In this document: piece by piece, positions 1-18,964 of the stretch
How the letters are laid out: each line of letters begins with the position of its first letter
Numbering within the stretch: the stretch's first letter is position 1
From: Branchiostoma floridae
Taxonomy: Eukaryota; Chordata; Leptocardii; Amphioxiformes; Branchiostomatidae
Length of the DNA: 64,000 nucleotides
Direction of reading: 5' to 3'
Assembly: GCF_000003815.2 (NCBI RefSeq)
Contig: NC_049988.1
Span: 6,476,004 to 6,540,003, forward strand
Notes under the pieces: model-generated
Told to the model about the DNA's origin: nothing
Database searches by the model: none
What the model saw: the letters and a program-made list of their open reading frames with translations, nothing else
Program-made: the position numbers and the translations under genes

Positions 1-203
1 TGTGCAAAATTTGTATTAGTTCCAAATTTAGTTAGAAGAGAGAATATCATGATCATGTTGTGCCCATTTACAATATTAGGACAAGTTTTCTTGATTGTGA
101 TTGTGATTGTTATGTGATTTTATCAAAGTTTTATACATAAACTCGAATTTTGCTGAAACATTTTCTAGAGTTGATCACCTGTTCTTTCCTACGATTGCTA
201 CAG

Positions 204-317
204 ACGTTCTTCTGCGTGGTGATTGGTGCCATGTCCCTGGGCCAGGCTGCACCAAACATCGAGTCCTTTGCGAAAGCGAAAGGTGCCGCTGCGTTCGTGT
301 ACAGTGTCATAGACAAT
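204..317 (+). CDS. abcb1: ABCB exon: TM6 end
   Basis: 38 codons, phase 0 at both ends, after acceptor ctacag and before donor gtaagt. It encodes the [16 protein letters not shown] segment at the end of TM6, which leads into NBD1. This is the first exon visible in the window. Confidence 0.93.
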
Positions 318-3300
318 GTAAGTTCAAAGTTTTTCCTTTTAAGAATTCTGCTCTGAAAGAAGCTGTTTGAAAATGGTCCATATTCGACTCTACATGCCTG
401 TAGCAGGTCTGTAGCTAGAAAATGCATTAATCAACTTGTCAAGAGAAGAATAGTAGTCTAGCTGCAGTTTTCAACATTGTTGATAGGGGGCACTGCTGAT
501 TAGCACATGATACAGTTACTGTATTACTTCAGTCCTATGAAGGATTCTTGGATCCCACAATGTACATATTAGTCTGGGTTTGTTAATTTTTCCTTAATTT
601 GATTATCTGAGTGTATGATGTTATGTTTCTAGCTACTGTTAATGGTAAAATTTCTTTTCCAAGAGGTTTGTTGACTTGAACTAAATCTCGTTTGCATTTT
701 GATTGGTTGTTCAGGAACCAGTGATTGACAGCCTGTCGGAGGAGGGTCACAGACCCGACAGCTTGAAGGGCAACATAGAGTTTAAAGACGTCAACTTCAC
801 GTACCCAGCTCGTCCAGACGTTCCAGTAGGTCACAATACGTCATATTTTGCTTTCTTTCGCTTTGTGACATATCATGATTTTGAAATTCTATCAATTATA
901 CTATAGGGGCAATGTCAGAGTCTTTAGATATGTCAAAAATTTCTCCAAATATCAAAACTAAAAGTTGCAGTTGTTTACAGTGCAAACATATATCATATTC
1001 AGAAATCTTTCCTGTCACAACAAAAAGTACAGCAACTTTCATTAGGTTTATTACATTACTACGTACAGTACATATAAACAGACAAGTGTATACAAATGCA
1101 TTATGTAATCTAATGTTTGATAAGTTGAATTTTAAGGAATGGATTTTTTGCTGTGCAAGACTTACATGATTGTATCGTCTTTAAGTTTGTGGTTACAAAG
1201 TTTTAGTTACCTAAGTTTGAAAAAAAATGTGTACAAACTCTGGCTGGATAGATTGGTTTCATATTTGGTGTGGTGGTTTGGGCCCCTTAGCAGCTTCTCA
1301 TGGTACTGCAGCTTAACGTTTAATATATTGTGTTCTGAACAAGCTATGGTCATGATGTTTGGGTGTTTAATAGCTCTTGTTGGTACTGATTTTGTTGTTG
1401 CGATCTCATTACCAGGTGCTGCAGGGCTTGAGTCTGAAGGCTGATGTTGGCCAGACTGTGGCGCTGGTCGGGTCCAGTGGCTGTGGGAAAAGTACCACGG
1501 TTCAGCTCATTCAGCGCTTCTACGACCCACAGGAGGGAGTGGTGCGTTTTCATTTCATTCATCATTTATCAAAACATAATTATGAACTTATGTTTGGGTC
1601 GATAGTGTACTGTTAATATGTGGTTTTAATGGCGGAGTGGCTGGTTGATACCTTGGCAAAAATGGTGTGAAATGCAGCCCTTAAATGCTTGAAATTTTAC
1701 TGCTGCTGTACTGTAGCATTAGTGACAACTGCCATGTTAATTTCACAGTTAAAATAGCTGTCCAAGATACTGTAAATGCATTTAAGTTTGTGGGGAGTTA
1801 ATGTCACGGAAGCGTGAGAAATGACTTTTCGCGGTGGTTTTAAGTTCGCGGTAGCACCATGCACTGTAGTCTCTTACTGCCATGGAAAAATGTTTGTGGT
1901 AGTTTTAAATTCGCAGTGAAGCGACCAGCGCAAAAACTGCAAACATTAAACCAACGCGAAAGTTTCTGCATTTACAGTACCTCTACCATGCTGTCAAAAT
2001 GACTAATTTTAACTGTTGACTGTTTTATATGAGATAAGTTGATAAATTGATAACTGTTTTTGCCAGACTCTATGCTACTTATTACTCATTTTTCCTCATT
2101 GTACCCCAATGTGGAAGAGCCGTTCATTGTATAAAAAGACTTCAGTTGTAAGATTTTGCAGTATCATCCATATAACATTGTACTACATCATCATGAGTAC
2201 ATGTACATGATTGTATGGTATCAGTGATGATTATCGATAATAACAAGTTTTGCAATGGCAGGTTGAGCTGGATGGCCAGGATATCCGATCCCTCAACATC
2301 CAATGGCTGAGGCAGCACATCGGTGTGGTGAGCCAGGAACCCATTCTGTTCGCTACCACCATCGCGGAGAACATCAGGTAGGTTTCGTTCTGTTCCTGTC
2401 AGGCACTGTCAAGATATTTTTCATGTAACTGTATCTCATTGAAGCTGTCACAGTAGCACATTGATGGTGGCACTTTATTTGAGCAATTTAATTGTGCTCA
2501 TCAAATTTCATCAATAAAAGTGAACTCTTTTAAACTTTTTTGGTGTTTTTTTGTCTGTTTAGTCACATTTGTACAGTTTGCATGATACAGCAAAAGCACA
2601 CCCCAATTGCCAGTGTACATGTATTTCAATGCAATTGTCAGGTTGGTGCAACAAAGCAAAGTTATCCAGCTGGACCACACCGGTTTGGGATTTGGAGATT
2701 GCGTAAAATTAACAGAAGTGTGCGTTAATCCTTTGTGCAATTAACTGGCTTCTACTATATTCCCATTGTAAAATCAAGGGTAGCACAAATTGAATTTAGG
2801 ATGCAGCCAATGTGCGGCAGTTCAGTAAAATACCCGCTGAGCTTGATAATTCTATAATTGGAATTACAAAGTTATCCATTTAATGCTGTAGGTATGGCCG
2901 TGAGGATGTGACCCAGGCTGAAATCGAGAAGGCTGCTCAAGAGGCCAATGCACACGACTTCATCTCAAAACTGCCACAGGTACGTAAAGGGATACTGTGA
3001 ATCTTTTAAATAGTTCCTATCGTGTCATCACTCACTCAACGGTTATACAGATGAATGAATTTATTGCTCAACAATCGCACAGGGTACAATGTATGGCAAT
3101 TAATAACAACTAATAGCTAAAAAGTATACAGACAATAGTACTAAGAGGCTACATACAAAACAACAACAAAACATTATCCATAACAGTACAGTTATGTATG
3201 ATTAATCTGGTCTCGCATTTGGAATACATTATAAAGAAACTGGCCTACGTAGACGGATATACATTTGTGTATGAGTTGAACATGAGAGCAATACATGGAA

Positions 3301-6300
3301 AATATCGCTTTCTGCACCAGTGAGAGAGATGTGTTAGATATTGTTTCTCTCTCTTACATACAGTGTATGTGTGCCTTACTGTGGTAGCCACTGAAACAAA
3401 GAAAAGAAACTTGCATTTTGCTGTGAGCCATTTACTGTACTCTGAACCTGCATAAATCATTGAACATGTATTTCAATGTCCCTAGTGCTGAAATGCCATC
3501 CATTTGATTTGTGTAAAATAAGTAGCTGCAATCCCACCTAAAATCATATCAGATTGAGGATTCACAGCTTTAGAGCCTTAATTCTTAGCCATTAGACTCA
3601 TTTTGTATCTAATGAAAAGTATTATCCACTAATTTAAAAATAAATATCACAATATTCATATTCCAATGATGCGTAATACTGTAAATTCATTTTTTTTGTA
3701 ATAAAAATGTTGTGTTTAAGTTTGCAGTTTTAAAAAATCTGTAGTGTAGTAGAAAGAAATGTTCAGGTAACATTCCCTGTGTCATGAAAACAGCAAAATG
3801 CGAACATTTCAAGAAGTGTCAGTGTCATATTTCATGCTTAGACTGATTTTGCTATGAATTAAGTGATGAATTTGCTTAAATCTCAATTTTGATAAAACTG
3901 AACTTCTTCATGTTCACCGCAGACATACGAGACCCTTGTCGGAGAGCGCGGCGCCCAGCTGTCTGGCGGACAGAAACAGAGGATCGCGATCGCCCGTGCG
4001 CTGGTGCGGGACCCACGGATCCTGCTATTGGACGAGGCCACATCTGCACTGGACACTGAGAGCGAGGCTACTGTACAGGCAGCACTGGACAAGGTTTGTT
4101 GGATGCTGTATTTGGGCTCTCAGTGGGTCTAACAAATACGTCTTGAATGGACCTATGGTCTAAATTATCAGACTGTTAGATAATATGAAACGTTTCCTTA
4201 TCGAAACATGCGCAGAAATTTAAAGCAGTAAATGGAATTTGACATTTTGGGGTTCGTTTGGGATTATAAGTGTTAGTGAATTTTTCAAAAGTCATTTAAG
4301 TTTTCAAGCAATTTACAATCTTTTAATAGACTAGTGTAGTCAACATTTCCTTGGCTTCAATTTATGTACACATGTATGATATTGCATTGCATGATACTTT
4401 GTCTTCATCTTAAGCTATTATAACAGTTGTACTGTAATTGATTGTAGCCTGGTGTTTTTCCTATTCCATGTATCTCTCAGTGACATCCCATAGCCAATAC
4501 TAGTACCAGCCCCTAAGGCATATCAAGGGCACTGGGAAAAACAATTAGTTTTGATAGAGCTGGTCTTGTTATTTTGTGCTCAAAATGGGTTGCATTAAAT
4601 ATCCATTTTATTTCTAGGACACATAGATTCAGGCTGTCTATAAACTTCCCCAAGTCAGTAATAGTCCATCTGTATGGAAACTCATCATAGAGTTTTACAA
4701 ACAAATGTCTTTTTTTGCCAGGCCCGTATGGGTAGGACCACGATTGTCGTTGCTCACCGGTTGTCCACCATCAAGACTGCGGACATCATTGTCGGTTTCG
4801 AGAACGGAGTGGCGGTGGAACAGGGAACTCACGACCAGCTGATGGCTCAGCAGGGTGTTTACTATACTCTGGTCACTACACAGGTATGTATGGACACATG
4901 GACTGCTAGATACAGGATTAAGAATGGGTTTGATTCCTGATCATTACACGGTCACATTTCTCGTAGGTCATCTAATGCTATTTAAAATTTACAGTAGTAG
5001 GATTACTAAGCAGGCTGTGATGGCTGAATTTTTGCATGACACAGTTGTGTACAACTGTCCTAAGAATGCTCCCAGATTGCTATTGTATGATGATTGTACA
5101 ACCAGAATGACTGCGCCCTTGAATTTTTTGTCATTGGGAATGACGCTAATACAATTTTCCTCACCCCACCCAGGTGTAAAATGGGTATTTGACTTTGGTT
5201 TTGGAGGTAAAATGCAGTGGAAGGAGAGGGATGGGCACTGCCTTTTAGTTTTACTACAGCCAAAATTGTGTGTTTATGCTATTTCACCTTTATTCCCAGG
5301 GTAACCTATATCTATTTTTTTTAATTGGAAAATTAAGGCAATATAGTTGACGGATTACAGCTTGAAACCACTGTCTGCTGACTTGATATCCCTAAATACT
5401 AGATTGTTTTTAAATTCAATGGATATAGATTACCCCATGGATAGAAGTTAGCTAGTGTTATATATAATACATTGTATATATTTATACTTAGTACTTTGCG
5501 TACCTATGACAAATTAAGCCTTATTGTCATCACTTGTTGTCTTTCCAGACATTTGCTACTGAAGATGAAGAAGAAGATGAAGAGACTGGAGAAGTGTATG
5601 CAGGTGTGTCTTGATGTTATCTTAGATGAAACTTTTGCCAATTTTCTGCTTTTTCTTTGGCTTTGAAACTGCCAATGCTTCCTTTAACTTGTGTAATCCA
5701 CAACTTAATATTATATAACATTGGATTAAAAGAAACTACAAATTAAACATTATTACTGTTTGGGTACATGTATAATGTAAACTTTTTTCAACTGAAGATT
5801 AACCATTGTTTTTTTTTTCTTCCTGATTATAAACAAAAATGCCTTCAAATTTGCAGAAAAAAATTGTTCAACTCTCAAAAATATGAAAAACATTTGATGG
5901 TTTTTCAGTTATTTGTAAAATTGTACTATTTTAAATGTATATGTATGAAATGTATCATTCCTGTGTTTAACATCATTTTTAAATTTCTGACCCTATCATT
6001 GCTGTTGCAATGTCTATTGCAACACTGGCTTTCTTAACCATCAACGAATCAACAACCGTGTGTAGAAGGTACAAATTTGAAAATGTTTAATATGCACGGT
6101 GGCAAAGTAGTCTTGTGGGAAATAATTGATAGCAAACCCTTCCCTTTTGTAGGTCCTTATTGATATTGTGCATGGCAACAAATGCTTGATAATTGAATTG
6201 TGCCATGCATTGTGAAATTAAAGTGTTAAATTAAAGTGTTTATAGTATGTTGCTTCTGCCTTGCTTGCTTGCTGATTGCTTTTCTGCTTACATTTTCAAC

Positions 6301-8703
6301 ATAAAATGGGGGTTTACCAAAAAACTTACCACAGAATTTGTTTCATTTTCATTTGCTGCACTTGAATTTCTTTGCATTTCATTTCAATTAATATCATTTC
6401 ATTGCCTTTCTTTGTGTTGATGTTTATGCAGAATTAATTTCTTATGCAATTCTTTCCGTTCCACGAAACTACAGAGGACTTAATGTCAGGTAAACAAAAA
6501 ATCCTGACAAATTATTGTATTCTTGTGGTGAAGTAGATAGTTTGTGGCATGATGGGTGTTTTTATACAACATTTAGTCAATGGACCATTTTCATGGACCT
6601 TCAGCCATCTTGAATTTAGAGGTCAAAATACATTTTGCTATCATTGGCGTCATATATAACATAAACATAACATTACAAGTTATGTCAAAAGCTGCACTGA
6701 CAATCAGTGCTGAAATCAATGTATTTTTCTTTCTCAGTGTCTTCAAACTTTAAGATTCGTGTGCTGTATGGTCAATGAAGTGGTCCATATAATAGTTTTC
6801 ATAATTTTTTATAGACATACATTTTGTACAGTAACTGTTGTACTTAATGCATATCAAACTTGAAGAAAGGAAATGTAATGCATGCTTCTTTCTTAATCAA
6901 TGTAAACAATTACCAGTGTATTACATTACATCATGTCAATACATATTCTTTCACAAATTTTGAAATCATTGCGACTATAAAATGTTAACTGTGCATGTCA
7001 TGAAGATTTAGTGTTTTTTTCATAACTTAATTACTTTTACTTTGGTCGAGCTCCCGCTCGAGCCAAGCTTGAAACTTGTCTCCACTCAGTTTTTTCTATA
7101 AAACTGCTAAATAACAAATGATAGATTTCAGTTCTTGTGTCCTACCTCGTATTTTAAAGGTAAAACTGCTCAGTCAAGTGTCTTTCAGAATATTTTGAAA
7201 CAATTGGAAAATAACTGTATTTTTGTTCAACCTGTATCACCACAAAAGGAAATGATAATATGTGTATTTTAAAAGAAATTAAAAACAACTAGCGTCCTAG
7301 GTGATCTTTTTGTCATTCAAAGTAACTGTGATGCTTGAAAACTGTGAAATTTAAAAAGTAAAATTTACATTAAAACCAGTAATGTCACAACGATAATTAC
7401 CAAATTAATTAATTTTATGCATGGCTCAATCCTCCATTTTTTTAAAAATCATTTAAAATTTGTAATCTAAGGTGCTGACTATTTTTTTTTTCAACAGAGG
7501 ATCTCGCGAAAAAGTCAAGTGTTGCCCTTACCCGGCAGATGTCAGCGAGGAAACTGGAACGAACCATGTCGGCCACGTCTAAGAAAAGCGTGAAAGATGA
7601 AGAAGAAGAGGTGAGTTTACTATGATCTTCATCATTTAGTGATAACCCTCACGTCGCTAAGGCCTAGGGGGAAAAAGGCTGTGTTTCCTGTTTCAGTCCT
7701 GAAAAAAATGGGGTCTTTAGGTAGGGATTAATTTTTTTAGGCTGGCCAAAACTCTAGTGAGACATACTGTAAATGCATTTAAGTTCGCAGGGATTTAAGT
7801 TCACGGGGATTTAATTTCGCAGAAGCGGGAAAAAGGACTTTTCGCGGTGGTTTTAATTTCGCGGTAACACAGTAGACTACAGTCTAATACCATAATAGAA
7901 AAATGGTCGCAGTGGTTTTAAGATTGCGAAAACCGCGAACACTAATCCACCGCGAAAGTTTCTGCATTTACGATATTACAATTTACAGTAGAGTTGAACA
8001 AAGTAAACTGAAATGGTTGACACTTGTCTTTCAATGTCAAACTTTGATTTTGTGCATCATTTGATAAGAAAGGAAGCAGGCTGGATAAACCTGACTCCAG
8101 TGCCCAACCCAAAAAAGTCTAGGGTTGGCAGGCTAGGTTTTTCTATGATAAACCTAAGTGAAACAGGAAACACAATATTTTTTACTAGACCTATAATAGG
8201 TGGTCCAGTATTGTATCAGTTATGGAGTTAGGCAGGCTAGAAAAGGTGAAATGAAAAAAAGAAAAACACAGGACAGTTTTAACACAAGCAAGAAAAAAAA
8301 GGACAAAAGGAAGTGAATTTAGGCAAAAAAAGAAGTATTTACAATGATCTTAAATTTGCAGTTGAAAAAACACACTAAACTTGTGAAATTTTCAACCTTT
8401 GTGTGAAATTGTATTTTCAGGAGGAGGTGCCAGACCCTGACATGGGGCGAGTGATGAAGCTGAACACCCCAGAGTGGCCCTACATCCTGGTCGGGACCTT
8501 CTGTGCCGCCATCAACGGAGCCGTCAACCCCTGCTTTGCCATCCTGTTTGCTGAAGTCTTGGGTGTAAGTCAACAATTAACTTTGTAGTCTCTGCATCAC
8601 AAAACCTGTATATCACTTACTGTCTGACATCATAAATTATACCAGGACTGTGCTTCGAGCTGATACACACACACACACACACACAAGCACACACATACAA
8701 ACA

Positions 8704-8744
<41 letters not shown>

Positions 8745-11700
8745 GCACACACACACATACATACACACACACACACACATACACACAATACCTCCATTTT
8801 TCATGGAGGTAACCAACAGCATCAACATTTTTTTATAAGATTTTGTGGGCTAAGTCCTATGGCTTTCGTTAGGTATCAAATACTAGTAAGTGCATGTAGC
8901 TCTCACTAATTGTGTTTTGTTACTTGTTTGTTGTGTTTTGAACGTAGCCTACAAAAATCTATGATAACCCTTGTGTGTGTCATGAGAACCATCATTATAT
9001 GATAATTGTTCTGAATTTACCTGCCTTGACCGGCTTATGTCACTTCATCCTAGCAGCTGTAAAAGAGAAGCTTTTTACAGTTCAGACAGAGTCAACAGTT
9101 GCTAAAGTGTGTAAATTGTAGGGATGGGAATAAAATGGAGGTCTAATGTTTTGTATTCCAGGCCTTTGGTATTGCAGACCCAGTAGAGCAGGAGAAGAAG
9201 ACCACACTGTACGCTCTCCTGTTCCTGGCTATTGGTGGAGGATCCATGATCACCATGTTCCTACAGGTAAATAAATTTTTTAGTTTGTATGGCGTATACC
9301 CAGTCAGCTGCCTCAAGGCACAACACACCAGGTTTGTACTGAAGAGTACAATATGCATATCCGGACAGATTTATTTGATCTACTCACACTGGGTCAGTTC
9401 CCTGTTAAAGTCTAAAAGATACGTTTTTCAATTTTGTATTTCTCTCTCAAGGCCAGCCCGTTATAAGGTCTCATTACACAATTTCGCCGTCCCATAGGAA
9501 TACAGCTTAAATCACACAACTTCTATGCCCGCAAATCCAATTAAAAAACAGTATTCTGGAGATGTTTTGCTTTCTATTGCAAGTGCACTAGTTCGTTGGG
9601 CAGTAAAAAAAATGACACCCAAATCTAGCCGACTCAACTATAAGTTATCGGATTTCAAACTGCGAGTACCCAATAGCCGCACGAGGGCCTTTTGAGCAGA
9701 GAAATGCCTGGTGGCAGCACTCAAAACAAAGGAACATACACGTCCGCAAATCGATGCCGCAGGGCTTTTTTTAAACCGGGGAACGGGGGCGCCGCGCCCC
9801 GATACTATCTACCTGCGCCCCCTTACTCAAATTACTGATTGTACTTTCTCTTTCAATGTAGCATTACTTTACCATATTCACAACATGCAGTCTGTTTCAA
9901 ACTGATCCTTTTTCCAGTGAACATGTAACAGAAACAACAAACAATAATGTATCTTATTATTACAAGCTTCATTACTCTCAAAATATCCCAAAACAGATTA
10001 ATAAAACCACAAAAATAGCAATTTCTGGCTTTGAGTAAAGCACACAGCAGCATGCCCACGTTCTCATTGATAAGTTCATGGGAGGTTGGAAGAGTTCATT
10101 TTAAGTAGTAACAGGGAAAACATCTTTTTCATGGACTGTAAATTAAACATCCTTTCTTGGAAATATTTGAATCCATATTGCACATTAAATTCAGATGGGT
10201 AAATCACTACACAAAAGTAGTTAAAAACATAGTAATCTATACTAACCATCACATCAAAATGTTGTAAATAAAATCTTTCCCCCAATAGATTTCTAAGAAC
10301 TGCAACATCCTTCTGTTGTTAGCTCCTCCCCTTTCTGTCTGGCCCCACCTACCTGACTCCACACACTGGCTACAACTCTTTTGATGTGAAACATGATATC
10401 CCTGTGACACACTGATACAGCAGAGATTGTATCAAACTTGAAAAAGTGTGAATATAACAGATCAAGTCTGCAGTTTCTCACAACATTGTAACAAAACATT
10501 TGTTGACGATTTAGCTGTACAAAATGAATATTTTATCTGCATATAACATACAAGGCTCAACATAGTGGTACAGAATGTATATAAAAAACTTGACTTGACT
10601 TGTATATAAATCTTTTGACTATTTTAAAATTTGTATACAAATGTTTATATTGAGAAACATTCTTATTAAGTGCTAAATGTTGATATTGAGAAAGAAGAAT
10701 AGCCTTTGAAGGTGTTGCACAATCCAAAAGAACTACAAAAATGTAACAAGTTTAGCCAGTTTTTTCATTGTGTTAATTGTATCTTACAGGCTACAAAATA
10801 TGCCTTCTTGTAGTTTTACATGGTAAGGACAAACACACATTCAAGCCATGATTTTCCCCTTGAAGTAGCCTCAAAATGTCCCATTTTTACCTCATATTTT
10901 CAAAGGCTTCGCACAGCGGAAGGGGGGAAAACCCCCTTCCGCACCAACCCCCCGCTTGGTCGCTCCGCTCCCTCGCCACACTGACCAAGCTCCCTCATAC
11001 TAATTTTTTCTAGAAAAACCCCTGGATGGCATTACGAAACTTTCCGGCATGATCATAGGAGTAATATACTAGCTTTCATCTCAAATCCTTCTTATATCAA
11101 GGGGGGGCGATGTAAGGGAATTTATCATCCACCTAAACACAAGCTTTTGACTCCAAATCATTTTTTGGGCACGGACTCTTTGTACATGTACCTACGTACT
11201 CGGAGTAATACAGGAATGAGACCATAATAGAAATCATGGCTAGTTAGGCGACCTTGGCTGCCCCCCAAAAAGACAATCTTGTAGGTAGCTACCAACCCCA
11301 AGATTCCAGAGCAGTAATCAAAAACACAATATTTTACAGGCCTAAGTAACTTTACAATTCAAAAAAAGATTCTGTTGCAATAACATGTCACATTTTAGTG
11401 TCTGTCCTTGGTGCTGAATGACATGCACAGTGTTGTTAGTTACATTTATCCTTCTCACCACCATTCTTCACTGTCTACAGGGCTACTGTTATGGAAAGTC
11501 TGGAGAAATGCTGACTATGAGACTCAGGCAGATGGGCTTTAGCGCTCTACTCAGACAGGTCAGTCTAGTGGCAAAATTAGTCATTAGTTTATTGAATACA
11601 ATTGTACATTCAGCTGTTCAGTGTTTGGCTTTGATATTCCTTTGTGGTATTGCAATGGGAATTGATTTTGACCCAAGTGTAGAATCTTGCTTTTAATTTT

Positions 11701-11936
11701 TGTAATTAGTATATTTACATGTGAGGATCTTTCCATATATCTCTCAAAGGAAATTGGCTACTTTGATGACCACCAGAACAACACCGGAGCACTGACCACT
11801 AGACTGGCCGTGCAGGCATCACAGGTCCAGGGGGTAAGGACAGATAATATATTCTTCTGTTTCTCATTTGTAGTTGTGATATTAATAAATTTTGTACATC
11901 TTGTTACCTTTATGAAAAATGGAGGTATTGTTTTTG

Positions 11937-11967
<31 letters not shown>

Positions 11968-14900
11968 TCTGTCTTTGTACCGTTTCTAGATATTTGTAGT
12001 TAGCAAACCTTAAGAACCTCTGGATGGATTTTGATGCTATTTGATAGAGAGATCTTTAAGTGTCTTTTCCTTGTCTTCTTTACACAATCGATTAAAGCAG
12101 GACATTTCTTGAAAAAGCCAATTTTTACAGGTTTTATCTTTTTTGTTAGCTATTTCATAATTATATAGGCATGGATGTATTAAACACTTTCAACATGGTA
12201 GATGCTGAAATAAGCATTCATGCATTTCAGAGTCAATCAGGTTACAGAATTTGATTCCTGTTTTCAGGCTACGGGTGCTCGCCTTGGCACTATCGTACAG
12301 AACATCTTCAACCTGGGAGTGGCCGTGATCTTGGCTTTCATCTATGGGTGGCAGCTGACCCTCCTGTGCCTCGCCTTCGTTCCCTTCATGATCTTCGCTG
12401 GTTTCCTGCAAATGAGGATGTTGGCTGGCTACTCTAGCGAGGAAAAGAAGGCTGTAGAGGATGCTGGGAAGGTAGGTCAAAGGTCAATGTAGGGGAAGGA
12501 AGCAAGCAGAAGTCTTCTACAAAATATAACTGAGGTTTTCTTTCATTAGAGCATTGTGAGCATAGCAAAACCTGTATTGAATTAGCTCCCACGCTTGGGG
12601 GCCGCCATTTTGTTTCCCAAGTGAGTGGTGTATGATGGGAACTGGTGAGGTGTTACATGCAACTGTGATGTGAAATGTTAGGAGCATATTTTTGTTTTGA
12701 ACTGTAATCAGATTGAATTTTGCCTTTTTATGTTCAAATTTTAACTAATATTTCCAATCCTCTCCTTCTCGTACTAAGTATTGTAAGATTTGTTCTTTGT
12801 AATCACAAATAAAAGAATTTAAAATTTGCACTTTTAGGAAAAGCCATCCCCAACAGATCCAGTCTCAAAGCCACACTTTCATACTACATTTTGTGAATAT
12901 GCTGTCTCACTTTTGACTGTCCTGGCCCAGTTGATACATTTGGAAACTGTTACAAAACCTGCATCTGCTGGGGCCGTCTTACATGTGGCATGCAGTTCTT
13001 GCCCCTGTGGAACTTAGCGCCAGTAGACAAGAGGGTGGAGAAGGAAGTACACACCCCTCCTTCACCATAAAAAGTCATGTGCAGGCCAGGCAGACAGGTT
13101 GCCAAAACCTCGATGGCGAGTAACTGTCTGCCTGCCATTGTCTTCCAAGACAAAGGAATGCCAACACACACAATGACTGGGGTTTTGTTCTTTTGCTACA
13201 GACGGCTGTCGAAGCTGTCGAAAACATCCGCACGGTCGCCTCCCTCAGCCTCGAGAGGAAGTTCTGTGACATTTACGCCGACAAACTGAAGGGTCCGTTC
13301 CAGAAGTCTCAGAAGAAGGCCCACATCACGGGGCTGGGGTTCGCCTTCTCCCAGTGCATCATCTACTTCGCATACGCCGCCATTTTCCGCTTTGGAGCGT
13401 GGCTGGTCGCGAACGGACACATGAACTTCAGGGATGTGTTCCTGTAAGTTATAGATTGTGTATTTTAGATATGTATGGCGAAGAAAGATGATGATTGGTG
13501 GATTGATTGATTGATTGAAGTATTGACCAATTGATTTCATTTTTGATCTTTAAATTGATTTCATTGTTGCTTGATTTGATAGCTGGTTAGTTGACCCATC
13601 AACTTATTGATTTTATTGGTTTATTCATTGGTGGAAGATATGGAGACTTGAAATCAAGGCTGATAATGAAGGATTAATTGATTGATGGATTAAAATATTT
13701 ATCTATTACTTGTTTGGTTGCTCTAATAACATCAATTTACTAAATGATTCATATGCTGAAATGAATATTATCAGTTGATTATTTTCTTTCTTTTAACCTT
13801 GAATTGTTGATAGACAACTAATTGTTTTGGCCAATGATCAATTGACAAAACCACTTAACTATTGCAGATGTATTTGCTTTTTCAACTGATCAATGTACTG
13901 TTTATTTAATTGCTATGTAAAAATGAAAGAAAGATACTGTAAATGCATTTAAGTTCGCGGAGATTTAATTTCGCGGTAGCGGGAAAATGGACTTTTCACG
14001 GTGGATTTAATTTCGCGGTAGCACAATGAACTGTAGTCTCTTGCTGTTATGGAAAAATGTTCGCGGTGGTTTTAAATTCGCGGTGAAGCGTTCGCCGCGA
14101 AAACCGCGAACATTAATCCACCGCGAAAGTTTCTGCATTTACAGTATTGATTGCCTGGCAGATTGACTGACTAACCAACTGATTGATTGATTGATTGATT
14201 TGGTTGATTGACTAACCGTATGAGAGATAGATCACTAAAATGCTTGCTGTTCCAAACAGTGTTCTTGGTGCCATCATCTTTGGAGCCATGGCAATTGGTG
14301 AAGCCAACTCCTTTGTACCAAACTATGCTAAGGCAAAGACTTCGGCCACCCTCATGTTTCGTTTAATCGACCGAAAACCCGCCATAGACAGCTCCAGCCA
14401 AGAAGGCGAGATACCCGTAAGTTTCATACATGTACATGTATAATTTGTATAATAAGATGTTTCGTCTTTTTTTCATTCCTCACAGCGTGCTAGGTGCCAT
14501 CATCTTTGGAGCCATGGCTATAGGACAAGCTAGTTCTTTTGCCCCAGACTATGCGAAGGCAAAATCTTCTGCGACCAAAATGTTCCAGCTTTTCGACCGA
14601 CAGCCGGCTATCGATAGCTCTAGCGAGGAAGGGGAAAAACCAGTGAGCTTTGCATGACAGTTTTCTTATATATTTCACTCCATACGTCTGGTATAGGAGT
14701 GAAACATATTGTTTTTATGTTTATATTTCACTCTACACCATACTGGTGTAGGAGTGAAATATACTGTTTCTTCTTCTCTCTCTCCTTTTTCTTCTTCTCA
14801 TGCCTTTTGGCCAAATTGATTAATCTTTTTTTTTTCCACTTTTGGACCAAATGTCTCAAATGCCCCCTTTCAGGCCAAATACTTCCAGACCATATTTTCT

Positions 14901-17900
14901 TCTTTTTTTTTTTTTAAATGGACCTTTGAAATATTTTATTGGCGTTTTTTGGCCATCTTCAGACCAAGAATGGAACAGCCCATTATGGAATAATCCACAA
15001 TGTGGGAGAGAGAGTGAAATATTCTGTAACTGCTCACAAATGTAGCCTGTCTAGTTTTGTTTTCGTTTGTGTTTCTTCGTCCAACTTGCCCCTGTGTTAG
15101 CAATGTAGGCTATTGTAGGCAGTAAAATTTAATGTAGTAATCCTGTAGATGTAGTGTAGCCAAGTTATTCCTAAACGTGTCTCTTGTAGTATCATAGGAA
15201 ACCTGCAATGAAACATGTGGCATATAATGTAGAAAAAAAATTGTTGTCTTGGCATACAACTATACAGTGGATGTAATATGTTAATAACTGCTCTAAACCA
15301 ACCTCCTGCTACACGGTTCCCCATTATGAATATGTACTGCTACAGTAGATCTTTTGGTTATATTTCTACAGAGAGCTTTCAACCGGAAATTCTTGACACA
15401 TTTTTAATGTACTACATTTGCCATGAGAACACATTTATGTTTCACCACAAATTCAGCCCCAGTGAACATAAATGAATTTACAGTTATCTTTGATTTCCGG
15501 CTTCTAGTATATGTCAGTGTCTTAATTTTACATTGCATATTATGTAGATTCTACATGACTATAAAATTATCTAAATTTGTTGAAACCAGATTTTGTGGTA
15601 TGAGGGCACAAGAGCCTTTGGCAGTGTTTAAAGTTTCACAGTTGATGAACAGACCAAAGTAATGAAATGAAAAACATTCTAGCAATATGTTTGTGATTGA
15701 ACAAGTTTGCAGCAAGATCTCGCAATCCACCAACATAACACCCTGCAAATATTATACAATTTGCAGTAACCAGTGCACGTGAGCAGATGATTGGTTTAGA
15801 TTAGTTACAGTAAAGTGTGTTACTAAGTGCGATGCCATTGGTCGTTTCCACAGCAAAGCTGCGAGGGAGAGGTGTCGTTCCGAGACGTCCAGTTCGCGTA
15901 CCCGACCCGTGAGAAGGTGACGGTTCTGAAACAGTTCAGCACGTCGGTAAGTCCGGGAGAGACCCTGGCGCTGGTGGGGAGTAGCGGCTGTGGGAAGAGC
16001 ACCTCAGTACAGCTGCTGGAAAGGTTCTACGAAGCACTTAGTGGCAACGTGGTGAGTTGATCATTTTTTAAGGCCATGTCGAGTTGATTTAATGGATGAC
16101 ATCCACTGATGATAGAAGCGTCAATTTGTAGCCGTATCAAAAAGAAATTGCATTAAATTAATTAAATTAATAAATGCAGTAAATAAGTATTAAAAGAAAT
16201 AATTGGCTTGATTGCAAGATTATTTGGCATCATGAAGTACAAAATTTAGTAAGCAAGGAAAAACTGCAAGCAGTATGTCAGATATTCCATTTTTTTTCTT
16301 TTTAAACCCCGAACATTTACTTTCTTGGTAGTAGTACTAATTAAGAATAGTTCAGGAAAAGATGGCCACTGTTTCGTGATGTATGTGCAACTAACAGTTC
16401 TTGTAACCTCTGACCTAGATGATTGACGGCAAAGACATCCGCACGCTGAACATCCAGTGGCTGCGGAAACAGATGGGCATCGTGTCTCAGGAGCCGATCC
16501 TCTTCAACACGACAATCCGGGAGAACATCGCGTACGGAGACAACGAGCGCGAGGTCACACAGGCGGAGATTGAAGCCGCAGCTCAGGCCGCCAATATCCA
16601 CAACTTCATCACAAGTCTGCCTGATGTATGTAGCGATAACGATGTCATGTATAACAGTAACAGCAATATTGCAATACACGCAAACTTTAAGATCTTTATT
16701 TAAGGCCACACCAATTTAATTTCTTGGTTCACGGATTCGCTCGCTCCTCTTTTTTGGAAAAAAAAAATAAAAATAGAAATTACCACTCAGCAAATTTTCA
16801 CCATTAATGAAACCATTCACCAACTTTCTGGTGTAGCAAACATAAAAACTGACACTACTTTTGTAATTTTCAACGAACAGGTGCCGTTACTGAACAGTAA
16901 TAGTGTTTTGTACTTTTTTCAAGCTGAAAACTTTTTATTCTTTATGTTTTGGATTAGCCCTTACCTTTACCCCAACCATTTTACAATTTTTATTTTTATT
17001 TCGCCCTCTCGCTCCATATTTTTTATGAAAAAATCCGTGAACCAAGAAATTAATTGGTGTCAGAAAAAGTCAGAAGCACACATTCATTCAAGGGGTCAGC
17101 CTAGGTTTCTTCTTTTTGATCATTCATCTTGTATGTTGATTTTAAATGTGTTTTGTTTACATATCAATAATGTCAACCCCTCTGTTGTAGTAGTATAGTA
17201 AGAGCTAATTCACTAGTCATAGAAAAGATCAGGAGGTACAATTAGACTCATCTCGATATTGATTGGACGTGTGAAATGACATGGTATGTGCCTAGGTAGA
17301 TCTTGACGAGACCTCAAAATGATTAGATTTTTGGCCCCCTAGCAGCATTCTACCGTACCAGGGTTGTAGCCAGCACATGTCCTTCAGTACTTTGAAGGAA
17401 TTTTGCAGCTGGGGACTGGAAAAAGTCTTCCCCATCCCGTCCCTGGGACAGACAAAACTTGATATATAAAGATATAAAAAAACTGAAACCCATGTGTTCT
17501 TCTTCACCAATTAACAAATGTCATTGAACAGCTTAGTCTACAAGCAAAATTTGCACCTCAAAATGCAGGAAATAGTGTTTCAGAGGGTCTTGATTAAAAC
17601 ATTTTCTGGGACCCAGACCCCCTAGAAATGACGCGCAACGTCACGCCATGCCTTCGGTGCTCGATAGGATTCCCATTCAAAATCAAGGGGACTGAAAATG
17701 ATTTCATGCTGGCTACAACCCTGTACCGTACTGTTCCAGAACTTCTGGTTTTACTGTTTATTCCATGTACTAGACACACTATTGTCATGATGGTTTTTGT
17801 TGACCTTCTTTTGAAGTGCAGGGGGACAGTTCTGTCAGTGGCAAACTCTGTTTTCTAATGAAATTCTGATGTTTTATTGTTTGTTTATTTATTTATCCAG

Positions 17901-18964
17901 GGGTACATGTCGCCTGGCCGGCGTTTTTCAAAGATCCCTGGGGGGAATCCCCGTACATACATAACAATAATCAATGACAATATAAAATTAAATAAAAGGT
18001 AACTTAGCAAGAATCGACAAAGAATAACGCAATTTAACTAAGACAAGATAAGGCAAATCAATTGTACAACTGTTAACGTTAATCCTAATATAACTCCAAA
18101 TCATAAGTGAAATCAAATAAGTAATGGGAATTTGCATACCAATGTGAACAGAAAAAGACATACCGGATTACATTTCAGACCATTACCATATGCATTCAGA
18201 GTACGTTTGTCCTGATAATATAAACGTTTAAACTTATCATTCTTGCATTCGTTTAAACTTATCATTCTTGTATTTTGCAGGGTTACGAGACCAACACCGG
18301 TGAGAAGGGTACCCAGCTGTCCGGCGGACAGAAACAGAGGATCGCCATCGCTCGCGCTCTTGTACGCAATCCCAAGATCCTCCTCTTGGACGAAGCTACC
18401 TCGGCTTTGGACACGGAGAGTGAAAAGGTAAGAGTCCTAATACAAAATATTTAATACTTCAAGTATGTAGTGAATAATCACTTTGAGATAATTCAAGGTC
18501 CCTAGATTTAACGTAGAAATGTATCTGAGAAAATTTGACACGTCAAACATGTCTGAGAAAATTTGACACCTAAATTAAGCATCTCAGAAAATATGACACA
18601 TAAAACTTCTTAGGAAATTTGACACCTAAATGAAATGTCTCAGAAAATTGGACACCTAAAAGTAAACATGTCTCAGAGACCTTTAAATCTCAGAAAAATT
18701 AGTCTCCAATTGAAAACATTTTCAAAATGACATTTGGTAAAAAAAATAATTCCTCTCTTATAGGTTGTGCAAGAGGCTCTGGATCGGGCGCGGGAAGGTA
18801 GAACCAGCATCGTCATCGCCCATCGACTGTCCACCATCTTTAATGCCGACAAGATCGCGGTGATCCACCACGGCAAGGTGCAGGAGATCGGCAAGCACCA
18901 GGAGCTACTGGCCAATAAGGGGCTCTATTACAAACTGGTCAACGCACAGATGCAACAATCTTAG
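204..18964 (+). CDS. abcb1: ABCB full transporter (P-glycoprotein type), 3' part of gene, 20 coding exons plus one alternative
   Basis: This is an ATP-driven efflux pump of the plasma membrane (ABCB1/4/11 clade); substrates in the family are amphipathic drugs, phospholipids or bile salts. Exons: 204-317, 715-825, 1416-1541, 2262-2377, 2892-2979, 3923-4093, 4722-4883, 5549-5603, 7498-7610, 8421-8564, 9162-9266, 11481-11558, 11750-11833, 12268-12471, 13202-13443, 14260-14416 or 14486-14642, 15854-16051, 16419-16625, 18281-18427, 18764-18964. All have GT-AG borders and consistent phases, giving 940 codons plus stop. The order is TM6, NBD1, acidic linker, TMD2, NBD2. Both NBDs keep Walker A (GSSGCGKST), Q-loop (VSQEPILF), signature (LSGGQKQR), Walker B with catalytic Glu ([11 protein letters not shown]) and H-loop (AHRLSTI). 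About 340 N-terminal residues (TM1-5) lie left of the window. The clade is certain. Orthology to one vertebrate paralogue is not, because amphioxus genes usually predate that split. Confidence 0.96.
715..825 (+). CDS. abcb1: ABCB exon: NBD1 start with A-loop
   Basis: 37 codons, phase 0. It encodes the conserved [19 protein letters not shown] block; the Tyr of FTYPARPD is the A-loop residue that stacks on adenine. Borders are ttcag/ and /gtaggt. Confidence 0.94.
1416..1541 (+). CDS. abcb1: ABCB exon: NBD1 Walker A
   Basis: 42 codons, phase 0. It encodes VLQGLSL followed by the P-loop GSSGCGKST and QRFYDPQEG. The donor is gtgcgt after GAG GGA GTG. Confidence 0.95.
1768..1980 (+). repeat. Palindromic ~210-bp MITE (TACTGTAAATGCA family), copy 1
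   Basis: It begins TACTGTAAATGCATTTAAG and ends TTTCTGCATTTACAGTA; the arms are reverse complements rich in 'ttcgcggt/accgcgaa'. It lies in an ABCB NBD1 intron. This copy is the most decayed of five in the window. Confidence 0.85.
2262..2377 (+). CDS. abcb1: ABCB exon: NBD1 Q-loop
   Basis: 116 bp ending in phase 2. It encodes [16 protein letters not shown] and the Q-loop VVSQEPILF. The Arg codon is split across the next junction. Confidence 0.95.
2892..2979 (+). CDS. abcb1: ABCB exon: NBD1 helical subdomain
   Basis: 88 bp that complete the split Arg codon and encode [19 protein letters not shown]. The exon ends in phase 0 before gtacgt. Confidence 0.94.
3045..3335 (-). repeat. Probable LINE 3' end (CR1/L2-like tail), decayed
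   Basis: On the minus strand this ends '...gtgcgattgttgagcaataaattcattca', resembling the short-repeat tails of CR1/L2-type LINEs. It has no coding capacity. The clade is a guess from the tail. Confidence 0.35.
3923..4093 (+). CDS. abcb1: ABCB exon: NBD1 signature and Walker B
   Basis: 57 codons, phase 0. It contains [16 protein letters not shown] and [15 protein letters not shown], so the C-loop, Walker B, catalytic Glu and D-loop are all intact. The exon is clearly GC-richer than the surrounding intron. Confidence 0.96.
4722..4883 (+). CDS. abcb1: ABCB exon: NBD1 H-loop
   Basis: 54 codons, phase 0. It encodes [19 protein letters not shown], which carries the switch His, and the end of NBD1 ([18 protein letters not shown]). 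Confidence 0.95.
5549..5603 (+). CDS. abcb1: ABCB exon: linker, acidic part
   Basis: 55 bp ending in phase 1. It encodes a very acidic stretch ([12 protein letters not shown]) that begins the cytosolic linker between the two transporter halves. The linker is poorly conserved in the family, so support comes from splice borders and phase. Confidence 0.85.
6475..6489 (+). CDS. abcb1: Candidate 15-bp cassette microexon in ABCB linker
   Basis: Fifteen bases lie between a good acceptor (gaaactacag) and a good donor (gtaaac). They fit the flanking phase-1 junctions exactly and would insert five residues (E-D-L-M-S). The following constitutive exon also begins E-D-L. It is optional because the reading frame is intact without it. 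This is inference from sequence only. Confidence 0.4.
7498..7610 (+). CDS. abcb1: ABCB exon: linker, basic/phosphorylatable part
   Basis: 113 bp in phase with the preceding exon. It encodes a Ser/Thr/Lys/Arg-rich segment ([17 protein letters not shown]) ending in an acidic run. The matching part of vertebrate P-glycoprotein is the phosphorylated linker; R-x-x-S/T-like sites are visible here. Confidence 0.88.
7765..7973 (+). repeat. Palindromic ~210-bp MITE (TACTGTAAATGCA family), copy 2
   Basis: Same termini and internal 'ttcgcggt' arms as the other copies; it lies in the intron before TM7. The right end is degenerate (tgcatttacgata). Confidence 0.85.
8421..8564 (+). CDS. abcb1: ABCB exon: TMD2 start, TM7
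   Basis: 48 codons, phase 0. It encodes [18 protein letters not shown] followed by TM7 ([20 protein letters not shown]). Confidence 0.95.
8655..8835 (+). repeat. (CA)n microsatellite inside a dispersed element
   Basis: About 130 bp of CA with interruptions, followed by 'cctccatttttcatggaggtaacc'. The same motif is reverse-complemented at 11905-11940 beside a (TG)n tract, so the microsatellite is part of a dispersed element rather than an isolated tract. Confidence 0.8.
9162..9266 (+). CDS. abcb1: ABCB exon: TM7-TM8
   Basis: 35 codons, phase 0. It encodes the first extracellular loop of TMD2 and TM8 ([20 protein letters not shown]). Confidence 0.94.
9290..9560. repeat. Dispersed repeat in ABCB intron
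   Basis: The segment 'acacaccaggtttgtactgaagagtac...atatccggacagattt' recurs at 43264-43320 in a patatin intron. It is therefore a dispersed, non-coding element of unknown class. The exact borders are not visible. Confidence 0.45.
9561..11480. other. Long ABCB intron, no gene seen
   Basis: Contains only short ORFs without domain signature. A GC-rich patch at 9775-9830 and a strong 27-bp hairpin at 10916-10942 are the only local structures I can name. Confidence 0.6.
11481..11558 (+). CDS. abcb1: ABCB exon: intracellular loop 3 (first part)
   Basis: 26 codons, phase 0. It encodes [20 protein letters not shown], equivalent to the conserved GEILTKRLR block of P-glycoprotein. Confidence 0.94.
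11750..11833 (+). CDS. abcb1: ABCB exon: intracellular loop 3 coupling helix
   Basis: 28 codons, phase 0. It encodes [20 protein letters not shown]. The [15 protein letters not shown] block is a family hallmark and contacts the NBDs. Confidence 0.95.
11905..12115. repeat. Dispersed element with internal (TG)n
   Basis: Contains 'gttacctttatgaaaaatggaggtattg' followed by (TG)n and 'ctggatggattttgatgctatttgatag'. It is the reverse-complement partner of the element at 8655-8835. Confidence 0.55.
12268..12471 (+). CDS. abcb1: ABCB exon: TM9-TM10
   Basis: 68 codons, phase 0. It contains TM9 and TM10 around the conserved [16 protein letters not shown] segment. Confidence 0.95.
13202..13443 (+). 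CDS. abcb1: ABCB exon: intracellular loop 4 to TM11
   Basis: 242 bp ending in phase 2 (CT|). It encodes [17 protein letters not shown], the second coupling helix, then TM11 ([18 protein letters not shown]). It must splice to an exon starting in phase 2; both alternatives at 14260 and 14486 supply the missing base and keep Leu. Confidence 0.95.
13935..14146 (+). repeat. Palindromic ~210-bp MITE (TACTGTAAATGCA family), copy 3
   Basis: A well-preserved copy ending about 110 bp upstream of alternative ABCB exon a. The transcript could fold this region into a long hairpin. Confidence 0.9.
14260..14416 (+). CDS. abcb1: ABCB alternative exon a: TM12 to NBD2 junction
   Basis: 157 bp completing the split Leu codon. 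It encodes 52 residues: TM12 ([17 protein letters not shown]), the amphipathic connection ([17 protein letters not shown]) and the start of the NBD2 leader. The acceptor is ccaaacag and the donor gtaagt. It is homologous over its whole length to the exon 69 bp downstream, with 11 of 52 residues differing by my count. Including both would shift the frame, since 157 is not a multiple of three. Confidence 0.9.
14486..14642 (+). CDS. abcb1: ABCB alternative exon b: TM12 to NBD2 junction
   Basis: Same length, phase and content as exon a. Relative to a it changes E to Q, N to S, V to A and N to D in and just after TM12, and L to K, R to Q and I to F in the connecting helix. Version b ([17 protein letters not shown]) is closer to the vertebrate consensus [14 protein letters not shown] as I know it. 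Borders are cctcacag/ and /gtgagc. Confidence 0.92.
14669..14765. repeat. Two adjacent perfect-type palindromes downstream of alternative exon b
   Basis: Two short hairpins in tandem: tatttcactccatac/gtataggagtgaaa, and atatttcactctacacca/tggtgtaggagtgaaatat. A related palindrome is at 30564-30600. They begin 27 bp after the donor of alternative TM12 exon b. Confidence 0.75.
15854..16051 (+). CDS. abcb1: ABCB exon: NBD2 A-loop and Walker A
   Basis: 66 codons, phase 0. It encodes [20 protein letters not shown] and the second P-loop [18 protein letters not shown]. Confidence 0.96.
16419..16625 (+). CDS. abcb1: ABCB exon: NBD2 Q-loop
   Basis: 69 codons, phase 0. It encodes [26 protein letters not shown], and the family-typical RENIAYGDN and [12 protein letters not shown]. 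Confidence 0.96.
17895..18240. repeat. Probable retroposon fragment in ABCB intron
   Basis: Begins with a (TTTA)n tract and 'ccaggggtacatgtcgcc', then 'ccctggggggaatccccgta', resembling a reverse-oriented retroposon end with a simple-repeat tail. There is no ORF and the class is uncertain. Confidence 0.35.
18281..18427 (+). CDS. abcb1: ABCB exon: NBD2 signature and Walker B
   Basis: 49 codons, phase 0. It encodes [20 protein letters not shown] and [16 protein letters not shown], with all catalytic residues present. Confidence 0.96.
18764..18964 (+). CDS. abcb1: ABCB terminal coding exon: NBD2 H-loop and stop
   Basis: 66 codons plus TAG. It encodes [20 protein letters not shown] and RLSTI, ending QMQQS-stop after the last helix of NBD2. 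Confidence 0.96.

Follow-up and report, generated by a model that had tools for sequence, protein, structure and literature searches.

The window analysed here is a 64,000-nt stretch of Branchiostoma floridae DNA (C10:6476004-6540003), and its positions 1-18964 carry modelled exons e9-e28 of a gene whose stop codon ends at 18964. The gene, with its exons and introns in the window, and the hairpins described below lie on the forward strand. Exons were modelled from the sequence, and the sites chosen were GT/AG. The N-terminal part of the gene is upstream of the window, and the model begins there with exon e2. The gene product consists of two TMD-NBD halves; in its translation the Walker A, LSGGQ and Walker B motifs were recognized by eye. 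Its best matches among solved structures are ABCB4 and ABCB1, and Pfam PF00664 and PF00005 are listed for the matching amphioxus records. Judged by architecture and best matches, the gene is an ABCB1/ABCB4-type full exporter. The first-pass annotation had called it an ABCB gene and had assigned two of its exons to TM12; both assignments are supported.

Several other exons of the gene were located. No tandem copy was found of the TM6 exon of the N-terminal half (204-317). An optional 15-nt microexon with its own splice sites (6475-6489) encodes EDLMS in the linker between the halves, and the exact motif is present in six of the 12 amphioxus database proteins. Alternative N-terminal exons beginning MPDETD, GREGSP and MFSDYQ occur in database isoforms and map to window positions -11888, -9781 and -6280, which suggests two promoters and an optional exon.

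Tandem exon pairs for TM12 and TM1

Two homologous TM12 exons lie between a constant exon at 13202-13443, whose end phase fits either of them, and a constant exon at 15854-16051, which encodes the start of NBD2 with its Walker A motif (GSSGCGKS). Exon a (14260-14416, 157 bp) has the acceptor aacag and the donor gtaagt, and exon b (14486-14642, 157 bp) has the acceptor cacag and the donor gtgagc. The intron between them (14417-14485) is 69 nt long and contains candidate branch-point adenines. The exons share phase and length and are identical at 116 of 157 nucleotides and 41 of 52 amino acids. The duplicated unit is 175 nt long (14250-14424 and 14476-14650, 74% identity) and thus spans both splice sites. 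By DNA search, the pair occurs at a single place in the 513-Mb assembly. As adjoining homologues of like length and the same phase, each with splice sites, the TM12 exons are a tandem exon pair.

The reading frame admits only one of the two. Joined singly to 13443 and 15854, either exon a or exon b leaves the protein open, and the open models have 1305 or 1344 residues depending on the choice of TM1 exon, the first exon being excluded. When exons a and b are joined, a stop is reached inside the exon b sequence; when both are skipped, a stop is reached inside the following exon. The coordinates, common phase, 69-bp intron, homology throughout and frame logic given for this pair in the first-pass annotation were all reproduced, the coordinates exactly to the base.

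The two copies differ mainly at silent sites. Of the 52 codons compared, 20 match exactly, 21 show only synonymous changes and 11 encode a different residue; eight of the 22 fourfold sites are identical. The corresponding rates (NG86) are a dN of 0.127 and a dS of 2.47, with dN/dS about 0.05; a dS of this size is near saturation and reads only as a sign of age. With synonymous sites close to saturation and a protein that has changed little, both copies are old and constrained, and the substitution pattern indicates that both have long been kept by selection on the protein. The earlier view that both copies look functional, with no stops, is borne out by this constraint.

A second pair, which the first-pass annotation missed although its TM12 arrangement was right, lies upstream of the window and covers TM1 and the first loop. 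The short TM1 exon a (C10:6471625-6471830, 206 bp) and the long TM1 exon b (C10:6472371-6472693, 323 bp) have the same phase, lie 540 nt apart and share 25 of 41 residues across TM1. The frame stays open with either one alone and is lost when both are included or both are skipped. Compared with exon a, exon b has 39 extra codons, three rather than two N-glycosylation sequons and three cysteines rather than none.

All modelled exons were compared with the 84-kb region at E 0.05, and neither a third copy nor another tandem pair was found. The remaining exon cross-matches in that region were similarity between the N-half and the C-half or read-through at exon edges, and were rejected as duplicates. 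A second ABCB-type gene is present on C10 (about 15997209-16021147), with R at position 990 and one TM12 exon; it resembles the bile-salt-pump type. The TM12 and TM1 exons each gave one match in this paralogue, so neither pair was found there, and its single TM12 exon is different. A palindromic MITE-like repeat with ends like ACTGTAAATGCATTTAAGTTCGC occupies 13934-14147, in the intron just 5' of TM12 exon a, and further partial copies of the ACTGTAAATGCATTTAAGTTCGC-ended repeat lie near 1955, 7766, 23302 and 24582.

Probable exclusive use of the exons

Twelve amphioxus records were listed from searches of 5.8 billion proteins; the 90% clusters of the database hide members, and the isoform counts that follow are therefore lower bounds. 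Ten records carry TM12 exon b alone, and one, P0014, carries exon a alone. P0014 comes from the floridae x japonicum hybrid and is labelled isoform X2; records with an 'isoform X' label are automatic models, usually based on RNA-seq. The twelfth record, the B. belcheri protein P0003, is a fused gene model in which exon b follows the initial 31 residues of exon a. Thus 11 of the 12 proteins contain exactly one TM12 exon, which fits exclusive use. For TM1, five records have the short exon, six have the long one and P0003 has pieces of both. The combinations recorded are TM1b with TM12b, TM1a with TM12b, and TM1b with TM12a; TM1a with TM12a was not found among the 12 records listed.

The pair was looked for in other Branchiostoma; in B. 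belcheri, exon b is present together with no fewer than 31 residues of exon a. All 31 comparable residues of exon a are identical to those of B. floridae, as are 49 of the 52 residues of exon b. Early splits in the main amphioxus clades have been dated to about 87 million years, and earlier estimates cited in the same source give 130 million years for B. belcheri and B. floridae (PMC6305399).

Splice sites were scored by leave-one-out against the other exons of the gene, and with so few sequences the scores are rough. The acceptor of TM12 exon a scored 1.0, below the lowest of the gene's other exons (2.1), and the donor of exon b scored 2.3, near the bottom of the range (0.3-10.7, median 8.2). 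The exon a donor (6.5) and the exon b acceptor (4.6) fell inside the range of the other exons. The acceptors of the TM1 exons scored low as well (1.3 and 0.1). The splice sites had been described as good; they are indeed all GT/AG in both pairs, but with these values for the exon a acceptor and the exon b donor the word is too strong.

The 69-nt intron is by far the shortest in the gene model, the next being 191 nt. Counted from the exon a donor, the predicted branch-point-like adenines in this intron that fall within the usual range of the acceptor are at 27, 36 and 39 nt, and all adenines located 28-42 nt before the exon b acceptor are at 27-41 nt. A distance of less than 50 nt between donor and branch point is regarded as a mark of steric interference (Hatje et al., PMC5740500). 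Similarly, joining of exons 4a and 4b of human OGDH is reported to be prevented by branch points that lie 25-41 nt from the donor, and alpha-tropomyosin is cited in the same source as another sterically enforced pair with branch points less than about 50 nt from the donor (PMC7969005). The predicted amphioxus spacing is like that of OGDH, although the amphioxus intron spans just 69 nt and, unlike in those two genes, the predicted branch point need not be unusually far from the acceptor. Since the predicted branch points, at 27-41 nt, fall under the limit of about 50 nt, the TM12 exons are probably mutually exclusive.

Three slightly higher-scoring matches to the branch motif sit 3, 10 or 59 nt from the exon b acceptor. 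The match at 10 nt is 59 nt from the exon a donor, and if it were the real branch point the steric argument would fail; splicing at a spacing of about 10 nt between branch point and acceptor does occur in animals with short introns. In the mechanism proposed here, the predicted branch point of exon b would lie too near the exon a donor for the two exons to be joined, and transcripts that escaped with both exons or with neither would be frameshifted and removed by decay. With an intron of 540 nt, a steric explanation cannot hold for the TM1 pair, in which the choice might be enforced by the frame alone or by some other regulator.

Pairing of the Dscam/MRP type between the 69-nt intron and its neighbours was not found beyond the level of shuffled sequences in this one genome. 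Its pairing with the downstream intron (-29.6) was equalled or bettered in 33 of 100 shuffles and that with the upstream intron in 94 of 100; for the upstream and downstream introns with each other the count was six of 30. A 13-nt stretch at 14442-14454 is complementary to 15750-15762. For MRP, by contrast, competing intronic RNA structures have been reported (PMC6071210). Soon after the exon b donor, at 14666-14769 (24-127 nt 3' of the end of exon b), come two adjacent strong hairpins (z -5.2 and -5.9) whose arms (TTTCACTC/GAGTGAAA) are related.

On the sequences at hand, these results are best explained by a genuine, old, mutually exclusive TM12 pair in an ABCB1-type gene, accompanied by a second pair for TM1 and with predicted exclusion by steric hindrance and frame, and we hold this explanation with good confidence. 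Among the points against it are that exon a alone was found in only one of the 12 listed proteins and that the exon a acceptor scores low. These two observations, together with the early stop that follows when a and b are joined, would suit a mainly regulatory role, in which exon a acts as a 'poison' exon, transcripts with both exons are destroyed to tune the level of the pump, and the protein with exon a is rare or unimportant. This role is unlikely. The protein encoded by exon a is conserved at 31 of 31 comparable residues in B. belcheri, the dN/dS of about 0.05 between the copies would be unexpected if that protein did not matter, and exon a has kept its FGAMA and YAKAK motifs in addition to its length and frame.

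The two TM12 types among homologues

In the numbering of human P-gp, set by alignment to chain 6qex, exon a has E990, N992, V995 and N997, and exon b has Q990, S992, A995 and D997; the other seven differences fall at 1003-1027, farther toward NBD2. Residues 990, 992 and 997 were compared in 196 non-amphioxus proteins (P0015-P0210), drawn from the best 120 of 1077 matches, the best 120 of 1686 and one of 13. Q/S/D was found in 115 of these listed proteins, E/N/N in 70 and other combinations in 11 (HSD in three, QNN in two, and QTD, ESD, ENS, KSD, QTS and QFD in one each). By record name, 67 of the 70 E/N/N proteins are from ray-finned fishes, the other three (P0060, P0138 and P0164) being without a name; ENS is from a bichir, QNN from two cichlids and KSD from a bonefish, Albula, in a fused protein. 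E/N/N is also found in two solved chains, 9ody (zebrafish Abcb4, species according to PMC13392234) and 9nfi (P-gp). Among the matches listed, Q/S/D was found in lungfish, tetrapods and beet and in all records of hemichordates (three), tunicates (two), sharks (two), chimaera (six), Lingula, Owenia and Mytilus, and no ray-finned fish was seen by record name among the Q/S/D proteins of the 196. By these residues, exon b is of the type of tetrapods, sharks, tunicates and hemichordates, and exon a is of the ray-finned fish type.

Trees were built from 40 TM12 segments (35 of the 196 proteins, four amphioxus exons and the C10:16.0 Mb paralogue) over 52 columns. When the three sites were left out, exon a clustered with the b exons (support 94/90, not starred), and a tree uniting exon a with the 16 fish rows was rejected (p-AU 0.022). 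When the sites were kept, exon a again clustered with b (93/88, bootstrap not settled), and the clade with fishes was not rejected (p-AU 0.29). At the 49 remaining positions, exon a agrees with exon b 41 times and with none of the 36 other rows, those beyond the amphioxus pair, more than 32 times. Seven positions were counted as fish-diagnostic: exon a agrees with the fishes at 990, 991, 992 and 997, exon b at 991 only, and neither does so at 978, 982 or 1020. In simulations with a branch of 0.33, the chance of exactly these three changes was 6e-5 (LG+G4) or 1.4e-4 (LG), figures that are rough, the sites having been chosen after the fact.

These results bear on whether the pair predates the chordates, with both TM12 versions in an ancestor from which fishes kept a, others kept b and amphioxus kept both. 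That exon a shares its combination of three residues with 70 of the 196 listed non-amphioxus homologues would agree with such an origin, as would the p-AU of 0.29 when the three sites are included. Nevertheless it is improbable, somewhat more so than a poison-exon role, given the grouping of exon a with b and the rejection of the fish clade when those sites are left out, the 41 of 49 other sites shared with b against at most 32 with any other row, and the uniform Q/S/D of the listed hemichordate, tunicate, shark, chimaera, Lingula, Owenia and Mytilus records. On 52 columns the evidence favours convergence between exon a and the fish E/N/N type over inheritance. The tree signal could be obscured if the two TM12 exons had undergone gene conversion, although the saturated synonymous sites speak against any recent conversion.

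Amphioxus genomes are highly heterozygous, and one TM12 copy might be an allele or a misplaced paralogue, but such an assembly or haplotype artefact is very improbable and was rejected on account of the nearly saturated dS, the single place in the assembly, the presence of exon b and part of exon a in a separate B. belcheri record, the isoforms with each exon in the floridae x japonicum hybrid, and the single, different TM12 exon of the C10:16.0 Mb paralogue.

The drug pocket and comparison with known exporters

The taxol-defined pocket of P-gp is listed as including L65 and M68 of TM1 and F983, M986, A987 and Q990 of TM12 (PMC11017244, Table 1). A search of TM1 against 6qex aligned ranges of equal length (3-51 to 34-82), and the alignment to the mouse protein was gapless. 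Residue 65 is L in the short TM1 exon and F in the long one, in B. floridae and B. belcheri alike; among 108 homologues it is L in 100 and F in one. Each exon pair therefore alters one listed pocket residue (65, L/F; 990, Q/E), and the other listed residues are kept. From b to a, a carboxylate would be lost at 997 and gained at the pocket-lining residue 990 (Q990/D997 in b, E990/N997 in a), so that net negative charge would be moved into the pocket. Together with L65 or F65 in TM1, this choice could yield four pumps from one gene, in which pocket chemistry or transport kinetics would be altered.

The first-pass annotation had proposed that the two TM12 versions confer different substrate ranges. 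Zebrafish Abcb4, which is E/N/N, argues against this, as its transport is much like that of human P-gp, which is Q/S/D. Its substrate profile was described by its authors as 'virtually identical' to that of human P-gp (PMC13392234), and the profiles overlapped in a screen of 90 P-gp substrates (PMC8683423). The two proteins are reported to differ in temperature response and in the activation energy of the ATPase (PMC11333832). Since they also differ at many further residues, neither the similar substrates nor these differences isolate residues 990, 992 and 997. The choice of TM12 may thus affect kinetics or coupling rather than substrate range. More tentatively, and somewhat against the odds, one gene may splice both natural TM12 types, the three linked residues having evolved twice as a unit and forming a functional switch that shifts the negative charge from 997 to 990 in concert with residue 65 of TM1.

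Mutually exclusive exons are already known in the MRP/ABCC exporters of insects and other metazoa. The MRP gene of D. melanogaster has a cluster of eight tandem mutually exclusive exons, and work finding independent duplications of MRP exons across phyla is cited in the same source (PMC6071210). As in the amphioxus gene, neighbouring homologous exons within an ABC multidrug exporter gene serve as alternatives. The amphioxus gene differs in being of the ABCB1 type and in having two pairs, for TM1 and TM12; the MRP genes of insects and other metazoa belong to the ABCC family. Human ABCB1 (6qex) and zebrafish Abcb4 (9ody) have the same full-length exporter architecture as the amphioxus product. 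At 990, 992 and 997 the human TM12 is of the exon b type and the zebrafish TM12 of the exon a type, one type per chain, whereas the amphioxus gene encodes both. No ABCB1-type exon pair and no study of amphioxus ABCB genes was found among the listed titles and opening lines of abstracts, in a literature search that covered few subscription papers. To that extent the earlier belief that such a pair is undescribed for a chordate ABCB gene stands, but the amphioxus exons themselves are already known from automatic NCBI records, in which isoforms with each exon exist. What is unusual here, as judged from the alignments, is that two pairs swap pocket residues and that one of them matches a difference between fishes and tetrapods.

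How P-glycoprotein recognizes so many drugs is a long-standing question. In the amphioxus gene the same backbone comes with two versions each of TM12 and TM1, which differ at pocket residues 990 and 65, respectively; among the changes in TM12 are the three residues that set the fish pump apart from the tetrapod pump. Comparison of the four isoforms of this one gene in one cell type would reveal the roles of the TM1 and TM12 segments. Also, this would be a chordate P-glycoprotein diversified through splicing rather than through gene duplication.
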